DNA of 41,182 nucleotides from an uncultured Alphaproteobacteria bacterium (GTDB lineage Bacteria > Pseudomonadota > Alphaproteobacteria > RF32 > CAG-239): contig CALXWI010000008.1 of the NCBI GenBank assembly GCA_944392325.1, positions 1-41,182 of the forward strand, in the 5' to 3' direction. Numbering within the stretch: position 1 is the stretch's first letter; each line of letters starts with the position of its first letter. Made by a program: the position numbers and the translations under genes. Shown here in pieces: positions 5,035 to 6,441 of this stretch. Under the pieces are notes generated by a model. It was not told the origin of the DNA and searched no databases. It saw nothing but the letters and a program-made list of their open reading frames with translations.

Positions 5035-5050
5035 TGCTACCCTCTCCCGA
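5032..5050. repeat. 19-bp intergenic block, copy 1
   Basis: GGTTGCTACCCTCTCCCGA is found here and identically at 6337-6355. In both places it lies between a minus-strand stop codon and that gene's terminator. Here it continues into GAAGCTGGCGCA, whose complement resembles the hairpin arm of the 89-bp repeats at 94 and 393. Confidence 0.8.
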
Positions 5051-5132
5051 GAAGCTGGCGCAGATTGGCTCAGTCGTTTTACTGTGGGCTGACTAGAGTA
5101 TGAAGTAATCTGCATGCATCTTGTTTGATGTT

Positions 5133-5954
5133 TTACCACGAGGTAAGGATAGGACGAGCTATGGCAGAATTTCCGGTACCGTCAATGGCACGGCAATCTT
5201 CAGCATATATATCAACAATATAACCATTATAACCAAAATCTGTTGAAGACCAATACCAATCACCTCCTAGCCGCTTTGCGCCATTTGCTGTTAACAGATT
5301 ATTGAGTTCATCTCTATTGTTGCAAATAACAGTCAACTGTTCTTTTGTCGGTAAATATCCTTTTAAATTGCCGCAGAATATATGGTTTAAACATTTTTCC
5401 CAAGCTTCATCACTTGTCCATGGTTTTCCTACTTGTTTCATGGCTATATAGAAATTCATAGCTGATGTTTTGACACCGACAACAGTATTGTTACAATAAA
5501 ATAAATTTCCTTGAGGGCCATTTAATAAAGCTTGACAACTTCCGTTTTTCCACTCATAGCCGCTTGAACAAGTACAAGCCGTATATTTGCCACCACAGGC
5601 AGAACCGGAACCACCGGAGTACCCCGTGCCGGTGCAGGTATATTTATAGTTCGAATCGCAAGTGCACCCCTGATATTTACCATTACAATCATTGCCTACT
5701 CCTTTTTCACCAGCGCCGGAGCAGGTGTAAGTAAAACCTAATTTATTACACGCAAGGTTAAGACATTCTTCTTCTGAAGTTAGGCAAGCCCACCAATTGC
5801 CAAAAGGACATTTGACTCCCTTCCCTCCGTTGCAAGAAGTTTCAGTATAGCCCAAAGTTTTGCAATCTTGAGTGGCGACGCATTGGGCAAAGGTTAAACA
5901 TGGGATAAAGGGCAGACTTGTCCCTATAAGTAAAAATAGTTTTGTATTAGTCAT
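5133..5954 (-). CDS. Small secreted Cys-rich protein with C-terminal Lcl/DUF1566-like domain
   Basis: 273 residues beginning with a clear signal peptide (MTNTKLFLLIG... ending near LTFAQ). The middle is Cys-rich and includes one copy of the YKYTCTGTG...GGxGSxCxGKYxxCxC...GYEW module that is repeated seven times in the 927-residue protein at 19123. The C-terminal part (from YCNNTVVGVKTSAMNFYIAM, through LPTKEQL and WYWSST, to RPILTSW) resembles the DUF1566/Lcl C-type-lectin-like fold and is a close paralogue of the two such domains in that protein. Role unknown; an extracellular, disulfide-stabilised binding protein is an inference. The ATG at 5954 has AAGG eight bases upstream; the in-frame GTG at 5963 has no room for a ribosome binding site. 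The long leader RNA upstream is listed separately. Confidence 0.85.
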   Translation of the reverse strand: MTNTKLFLLIGTSLPFIPCLTFAQCVATQDCKTLGYTETSCNGGKGVKCPFGNWWACLTSEEECLNLACNKLGFTYTCSGAGEKGVGNDCNGKYQGCTCDSNYKYTCTGTGYSGGSGSACGGKYTACTCSSGYEWKNGSCQALLNGPQGNLFYCNNTVVGVKTSAMNFYIAMKQVGKPWTSDEAWEKCLNHIFCGNLKGYLPTKEQLTVICNNRDELNNLLTANGAKRLGGDWYWSSTDFGYNGYIVDIYAEDCRAIDGTGNSAIARPILTSW

Positions 5955-5980
5955 AACACACACCTTATCTTTTTTATGGT

Positions 5981-6016
5981 TAAAAAGAACGCTCCTCTTT
6001 AAATTTTAGAGGAGCG
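5981..6016 (-). terminator. Terminator-like hairpin at the end of the leader RNA
   Basis: On the minus strand CGCTCCTCT (6016-6008) pairs with AGAGGAGCG (5998-5990) around a 9-nt loop, followed by GTTCTTTTT. It lies between the structured leader and the ribosome binding site of the gene at 5954. It could be the end of a free-standing small RNA or an attenuator controlling read-through into the gene. Confidence 0.7.
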
Positions 6017-6195
6017 GGTGTTAGTCGACTGTATAATCGAACAGCCCCGGACGTTTTCGTGCAGAGCCTTATTAATCGCCGGCACCCGCATAAAATAAGT
6101 GTATGCAAATGCCAGCATATTATTTTTAAGTCGTTATGCCGAACGACCCGATTATAAAGGGCGACTAAACCCTGACGGACAGACTTTGTCCGCTA
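5981..6195 (-). ncRNA. Candidate structured leader RNA or small RNA, class unknown
   Basis: The minus-strand transcript predicted from the promoter at 6202-6230 is about 215 nt and highly foldable. A long-range closing helix pairs GGGTTTAGTCG (6172-6162) with CGACTAACACCC (6027-6016, one bulged C) and continues, after an internal loop, as TATAATCG (6156-6149) with CGATTATA (6039-6032). Inside are hairpins GTCGTT/AACGAC (6147-6130), a two-part stem GCTGGCA/TGCCGGC enclosing GCATA/TATGC, and smaller elements. A further hairpin (GCGGACA...TGTCCGT) precedes the closing helix. The terminator-like hairpin follows. I cannot match it to tmRNA, 6S, SRP, RNase P or the riboswitch consensuses I know. 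Either a cis-regulatory leader of the secreted-protein gene or an independent RNA. Confidence 0.5.
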
Positions 6196-6201
6196 AAAAT
6201 T

Positions 6202-6230
6202 AGTGTAGCATAACTAAGGTTAAAAATCAA
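6202..6230 (-). promoter_or_regulatory. Predicted promoter of the leader RNA and secreted-protein gene
   Basis: On the minus strand TTGATT (6230-6225) and TACACT (6207-6202) are separated by 17 nt, each matching four of six positions. It would start the leader RNA near 6195. Confidence 0.5.
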
Positions 6231-6300
6231 TATACGAAATTTAGATAATCTCGAAATAGGAATTTCTAAGGTGCAAAAGAAGCGAAAAATGTCTCAACAA

Positions 6301-6325
6301 AAGCGCCGCAGAAAATGCGGCGCTT
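6301..6325 (-). terminator. Intrinsic terminator beyond valS
   Basis: Perfect 9-bp stem AAGCGCCGC/GCGGCGCTT (6301-6309 with 6317-6325) around a 7-nt loop. On the minus strand it is followed by TTGTTG rather than an uninterrupted T run. It lies about 115 bases past the valS stop, beyond the palindromic repeats. Confidence 0.65.
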
Positions 6326-6336
6326 TGTTGTATTAA

Positions 6337-6355
6337 GGTTGCTACCCTCTCCCGA
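6337..6355. repeat. 19-bp intergenic block, copy 2
   Basis: Identical to 5032-5050. It runs directly into a small hairpin CGGC-TCA-GCCG (6356-6366) with a 3-nt loop. Confidence 0.8.
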
Positions 6356-6369
6356 CGGCTCAGCCGCCA

Positions 6370-6441
6370 CCCTCTCCCTGCACGGGAGAGGGAAAAGCTT
6401 GAGCTGTACCTGCACGGGCAAGGAAAAGCTTGAGCTGTATT
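6370..6441. repeat. Palindrome and 31-32 bp tandem duplication at the valS 3' end
   Basis: A perfect 9-bp palindrome CCCTCTCCC/GGGAGAGGG (6370-6378 with 6384-6392, loop TGCAC) overlaps the first of two tandem units. Both units begin TGCACGGG and share GGAAAAGCTTGAGCTGTA (units 6379-6410 and 6411-6441). The second unit reaches the last bases of the valS stop codon. Confidence 0.85.

Follow-up and report, generated by a model that had tools for sequence, protein, structure and literature searches.

Judged by its sequence and by comparison with related genomes, the leader that precedes a secreted Cys-rich protein gene in the DNA analysed here (a stretch of 41,182 nt from an uncultured alphaproteobacterium, referred to below as the window) is one copy of a multicopy, order-wide class of pseudoknotted leader RNAs that was previously uncatalogued. 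The label of riboswitch or attenuator, under which the region had been put forward in a preliminary description, would fit this candidate leader: one of the features by which a riboswitch is recognized, a conserved structured core with covarying helices in 5' leaders, was found. The RNA would therefore be of a known kind, cis-regulatory and riboswitch-like, and would represent a new class, the unusual feature of which is a set of hypervariable codes that are complementary to each other within the same molecule.

Architecture of the leader

The genome from which the window originates (G000, 1.53 Mb) yielded 46 parsed leader copies, of which 14 were assigned to type A, 10 to type B, four to type C and 18 to type E; the copy in the window is of type A. 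It is located on the minus strand at approximately 6194-5955, upstream of the secreted Cys-rich gene. The predicted fold energy of positions 5975-6195 was -88.3 kcal/mol, compared to -53.4 +/- 4.7 kcal/mol for shuffled sequences (z = -7.4), and none of 200 shuffles reached an equal value. Both segments of the long-range helix that had been proposed earlier, 6172-6162 with 6027-6016 (11 bp, one bulge) and 6156-6149 with 6039-6032 (8 bp), are present in this fold, and so are the proposed internal hairpins and the terminator-like structure before the SD, a GC-rich hairpin with a T-run at 6015-5982. A promoter, at most implied in the preliminary description, became evident from the comparison of copies and is conserved across them with the consensus TTGATT-N17-TAnAnT; based on its position, transcription is expected to start near 6195. 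The gene probably starts at the ATG at 5954 behind the SD GGTGT (5964-5960) rather than at the GTG at 5963 given in the list of open reading frames. The following features were assigned:

6202-6230, minus strand: sigma70-type promoter, TTGATT (6230-6225), 17-nt spacer, TG-extended -10 box TACACT (6207-6202)
6175-6193, minus strand: P0, 5'-terminal hairpin of the RNA, based on the fold and on compensated changes in other copies
6159-6172, minus strand: H1, hairpin GGG-UUUAGUCG-CCC, the loop of which is V1 (V1 core 6168-6162)
6149-6156, minus strand: V2, hypervariable partner of V2', based on the fold and on copy comparison
6129-6148, minus strand: P3 hairpin, the loop GGCAU (6140-6136) of which can pair with AUGCU (6118-6114)
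6077-6117, minus strand: P4, long core hairpin, based on the fold and on other copies
6045-6076, minus strand: P5, with the conserved internal-loop motif UUAAUAAGGCUC..CACGAAAACG (AAUAAG..GAAUAAG in other types)
6029-6044, minus strand: H2, hairpin CUGU-V2'-ACAG, with V2' at 6039-6032
6021-6027, minus strand: V1', partner of V1 (6168-6162), based on the fold and on other copies
6016-6022, minus strand: anti-SD AACACCC, pairing with GGG 6172-6170 (closed form) or with the SD GGUGU (masked form)
5982-6015, minus strand: intrinsic-terminator-like hairpin (GCUCCUCU/AGAGGAGC) and U-run, with at least four T after the hairpin in nearly all copies
5960-5964, minus strand: SD segment GGTGT, complement of the anti-SD ACACC
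5133-5954, minus strand: secreted Cys-rich protein gene with probable start ATG 5954 and signal peptide MTNTKLFLLIGTSLPF.., belonging to a set of about 70 paralogs

From the copies, the order of elements reads 5'-P0-(H1a V1 H1b)-V2-(P3, P4, P5)-(H2a V2' H2b)-V1'-antiSD-(terminator)-SD-ATG. V1, the loop of H1, pairs with V1' directly behind H2, while V2', the loop of H2, pairs with V2 directly behind H1; together, V1:V1' and V2:V2' form two interlocked pseudoknots, and the conserved core comprises two to three hairpins. The GGG..CCC stem of H1 is retained in nearly all copies of types A, B and C and encloses a variable loop, and the P3 loop and its partner differ between types in a matched way, with GCAU/AUGC in type A and GGUA/UACC in type B. 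A further complementarity, present in all types, links the terminator's U-run to an A-run that immediately precedes the SD (5989-5968 in the window), with the pair TTCTTTTT..AAAAAGAA in type A and TTGTTTT..AAAACAA in types B and E, a compensated change between types; these segments would form a second small hairpin in the read-through mRNA. Additionally, an interspersed repeat with ACCCTCTCCC blocks flanks the gene on both sides (5037-5110 and 6340-6430).

Distribution and genomic context

Promoter, core, terminator and SD are common to the aligned copies. At the DNA level, a search of 37 relatives returned 21 matches in the own genome, comprising full copies and copies with the first 78 nt in common and nothing further, as well as 20 matches in G006, 16 in G010 and almost none elsewhere. 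Type E, the third large leader type, was found in the upstream regions of paralogs and has the same architecture without evident sequence similarity. A model built on type E (R1) identified the RNA in 77 of the 101 genomes of the family, representing 14 of its 16 genera, and a model built on type A (R2) in 74 of these 101 genomes and in 108 of the 153 genomes of the order. The highest copy numbers were 61 (G052) and 78 (G102). In a class-wide sample of 289 genomes, the architecture occurred outside the family only in f74 (two genomes, E ~5e-8) and, more weakly, in one genome of f69, so that a third family probably carries the RNA. A core pattern matched exclusively metagenome-assembled genomes or assemblies titled Alphaproteobacteria, proteobacterium, Rhodospirillaceae, Azospirillum sp. 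CAG:239, Pseudomonadota or 'bacterium', and many of these matches come from gut or rumen.

Nearly always, a gene follows the leader, separated from it by terminator and SD, and this holds across many gene contexts. About 70 matches to the secreted Cys-rich N-terminal domain were found in the own genome, a very large paralog family for a genome of this size, and some of these paralogs lack a leader. Several of the latter (L055, L072, L085, L087, L088, L090-L092 and L096) have another upstream block in common, consisting of a TATAAT-like promoter and GTGAAGATAAATGTTGATACAGGTGTTATTATGCAAAAA. A conserved palindrome of CRP/FNR-like form, TTGATGATTACATCAA, lies immediately before the -35 box of type E leaders (e.g., L052 and L093), which suggests a putative transcriptional control common to type E genes. 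In other genera, and where the leader occurs as a single copy, it precedes genes for small proteins with an HTH domain (HTH_3/HTH_31; about 75-95 aa), for lipoproteins, among them one with a PEGA domain, or for an outer-membrane barrel, and the large expansion in G052 is associated with LRR_5 or pilin-like secreted proteins. The theme of the downstream genes is thus the cell surface along with small regulators.

The leader type at a given locus can differ between species, as at the apparently same locus L037 in G000 (type B) and L222 in G006 (type E), where V2 is nearly equal (GTATTGTA and CTATTGTA). At three loci of G006 (L028, L046 and L048), the leaders end after P4 and are joined to another promoter (TTGAAA..TATACT) and another SD, and these genes seem to have escaped the leader. 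The exchange of types and the numerous family copies with their turnover might point to a mobile or recombination element, such as an attC-like site, a retron or DGR RNA or a MITE, rather than to a regulatory RNA. However, promoter, terminator and SD are matched to the gene, and the RNA precedes unrelated single-copy genes across the order. Furthermore, no reverse transcriptase (PF00078), as would be needed for a DGR or retron RNA, is present in G000, which is 91% complete, and two core patterns gave no match among the IMG/VR viral contigs, which also argues against a phage element. A simple dispersed DNA repeat is ruled out by the position before genes and by the helices that are maintained through compensation. 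We therefore disfavour a mobile element and consider it highly improbable.

Known RNA families

The preliminary description had failed to assign the leader to a class. In agreement with this, a covariance search against Rfam 15 at the gathering cut-off gave no match in the window or in sets of 13 and 20 relative loci, except for a single tRNA outside the element; the T-box model was likewise without match at this score in the window and the relative loci. A lax search of positions 5900-6440 returned nothing over the RNA core apart from one snoR639 match at 14.6 bits. No description of the leader RNA was found in literature searches. A type III toxin-antitoxin system was rejected, since the downstream genes encode no ToxN-like toxin and their Pfam matches are HTH, LRR_5, PEGA, OMP_b-brl or none.

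Compensatory changes in the code helices

Compensatory changes in the two segments of the closing helix had been named beforehand as the support to look for, and they were found in both. Among the 18 type E copies (set A4), V2 shows double changes at seven of seven pairs with 99.2% of the cells paired, and the covariation was 0.460, compared to 0.111 +/- 0.014 for shuffles and 0.03-0.07 for slid versions. In 40 model-aligned copies from G052, a member of another genus (set A7), all seven pairs of V1 and all seven of V2 have undergone double changes, 99.6-100% of the V1/V2 cells are paired, and the covariation reached 0.921 (shuffles, 0.249 +/- 0.014; slid versions, at most 0.16). For the 23 type A copies (set A1) the value was 0.264 versus 0.132 +/- 0.007 for shuffles, with double changes at six of seven V1 pairs. 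In a set of 69 copies, drawn from three genomes together with a few relatives, V1:V1' comprises 6-8 bp in all copies except one (5 bp), and V2:V2' comprises 6-9 bp in all of these 69 except one, which has a single mismatch.

A putative switch at the SD

Between types, the SD changes along with the anti-SD (AACACCC/GGGTGTT, AACATCC/GGATGTT and AGCTCC/GGAGCT). In addition, among copies in which all 7 nt match, the anti-SD-adjacent base of V1' pairs with the base beside the SD in 39 of 43 cases (31 of them Watson-Crick) against 23.4 expected, and none of 20,000 permutations, which ignore the relatedness of copies, was as high (p<5e-5). In type E, this V1'-SD covariation is weak (p=0.03). As the V1' base pairs with V1 and also covaries with the SD-adjacent base, the masked helix would extend into V1' in competition with V1:V1'. 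For the copy in the window, nested folding with pseudoknots ignored gave energies of -91.2 with the SD free and -90.2 with the anti-SD:SD helix; in this calculation the two forms are predicted to be nearly balanced and the copy would be 'poised'.

We consider it probable that the leader is a cis-acting switch that exposes the SD when V1:V1' forms and masks it when anti-SD:SD forms, the intrinsic terminator being a second gate. In the closed form, the double-pseudoknot domain would hold V1' and the anti-SD, leaving the SD of the read-through mRNA open, whereas release of V1' would allow anti-SD:SD pairing, 5-8 bp in the host's genus, to mask the SD. The terminator between anti-SD and SD would limit read-through, so that the majority of transcripts would probably stop at a length of about 200 nt. 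The balance might be tipped by a candidate trigger such as a protein, a second RNA or a ligand that binds to the AAUAAG core, while the hypervariable V1/V2 codes may keep the folding of every copy its own. Because V1:V1' and anti-SD:SD overlap in V1' by just 1-3 nt, they may not fully exclude each other. The SD match in genus g30 is reduced to a generic GGAG:CUCC, and masking can thus not be the whole mechanism there; G052 has a GGAG:CUCC match only, so that the terminator would probably be the main gate in this genome.

Some tandem promoter-RNA-terminator units without an ORF between them (L135, L138 and L173) fit poorly to a purely cis-acting role. They speak for a stand-alone small RNA acting in trans, where a strong promoter and an unconditional terminator produce an abundant 200-nt RNA, the gene is expressed from rare read-through, and the RNA acts, for example, by base pairing between its anti-SD and SDs in the mRNAs of siblings or by titration of a protein. 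The occurrence of the terminator in nearly all copies and the equal anti-SD and SD of same-type siblings point in the same direction. In contrast, a gene with a matched SD is nearly always located directly behind the RNA, and the covariation of V1' with its own SD is a signature of action in cis. We regard such a trans-acting RNA as unlikely.

Variability of the codes

The sequences of V1 and V2 are hypervariable, but nearly all copies, near-identical tandem duplicates among them, preserve self-complementarity. Type E copies differ from each other at 0.63 of the V2 sites in the own genome and at 0.61 in G006, while the differences amount to 0.25-0.30 in the terminator, about 0.19 in P0, 0.15-0.18 in the first 90 nt of the coding sequence and 0.07-0.09 in the promoter. 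Seven copies have flanks and terminators that are almost identical but V2/V2' segments that all differ. Tandem units (L135, L138, L173 and L309/L316) are 91-96.5% identical outside V2 but agree in V2 at only two to four of six or seven letters, and remain self-complementary despite this divergence.

These data bear on the possibility of a metabolite riboswitch that governs a surface-protein regulon, comparable to multicopy c-di-GMP riboswitches, in which pairing alone matters and the variability of V1 and V2 is neutral drift. The conserved core with its conserved internal loop, the two-state design and the many targets with one theme, the cell surface, are in favour of it, and the P4 stem in G052 varies freely as well. 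However, drift should affect the terminator and P0 too; both are structure-only stems and nevertheless vary less than V2, so that neutral compensatory drift alone fits poorly, as it does with the seven copies and with the tandem duplicates, which differ at about half of V2. Thus, while such a riboswitch is a reasonable possibility, we incline against it in this form.

To account for the excess variation of V2, diversifying selection or a paired mutational process appears to be needed. It might tentatively be speculated, as a rather doubtful proposition, that V1/V1' and V2/V2' are RNA barcodes under diversifying selection, orthogonal intramolecular codes which prevent cross-pairing of terminated leaders and nascent mRNAs among the dozens of siblings present in a cell and permit independent switching of each surface-protein gene. 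The free variation of the P4 stem in G052 argues against this. No two copies within one genome have both exact codes equal, and all 11 pairs with the same V2 differ in V1; this strict uniqueness was rejected as evidence of avoidance, as independence predicts just about one pair with both codes equal (estimated from the counts). Locus-specific codes between species were similarly rejected: one clear orthologous pair (L033/L006) kept type and codes, while other loci had swapped the leader type.

Relation to other systems and implications

Regulons of the c-di-GMP-I/II (GEMM) riboswitches also comprise many copies per genome located before genes for extracellular and envelope functions. The leader RNA resembles them in being multicopy, in preceding envelope genes and in combining a core with a putative expression platform, but differs by the lack of an Rfam match, by two interlocked pseudoknots and hypervariable code helices, and in being known here from Alphaproteobacteria only. 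Orthogonal kissing loops occur in ColE1 RNAI/RNAII and hok/sok-type families, where the complement resides in an antisense partner; the leader RNA shares with these the short hypervariable complementary segments that differ among sibling copies, but has both halves in one transcript and no antisense partner. In type III toxin-antitoxin systems (ToxI), a promoter, a pseudoknotted RNA and a terminator are followed by a gene, an order also seen here; however, the leader RNA has no short tandem repeat unit, and the downstream products are secreted, lipo- or HTH proteins instead of a ToxN-like nuclease. In translational riboswitches of the preQ1 type, which are reviewed in PMC11625349, the pseudoknot adjoins the SD/anti-SD, and on and off states arise from competing pairing. 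The leader RNA likewise has a pseudoknot beside the anti-SD and putatively competing pairings; it differs by its much larger size, by the terminator that separates anti-SD from SD, and by the lack of a sequence match.

If our interpretation is correct, poorly studied but widespread gut bacteria would gain a common class of regulatory RNA, present in as many as 78 copies per genome of about 1.5 Mb, and this class would reveal how large families of secreted and surface proteins are controlled in these organisms. Since V1 and V2 change fast and always in a compensated manner among near-identical copies, it becomes testable how the many sibling structured RNAs of one cell avoid mispairing. Should the codes indeed serve as barcodes, the leaders would constitute a new kind of self-addressed regulatory RNA family.
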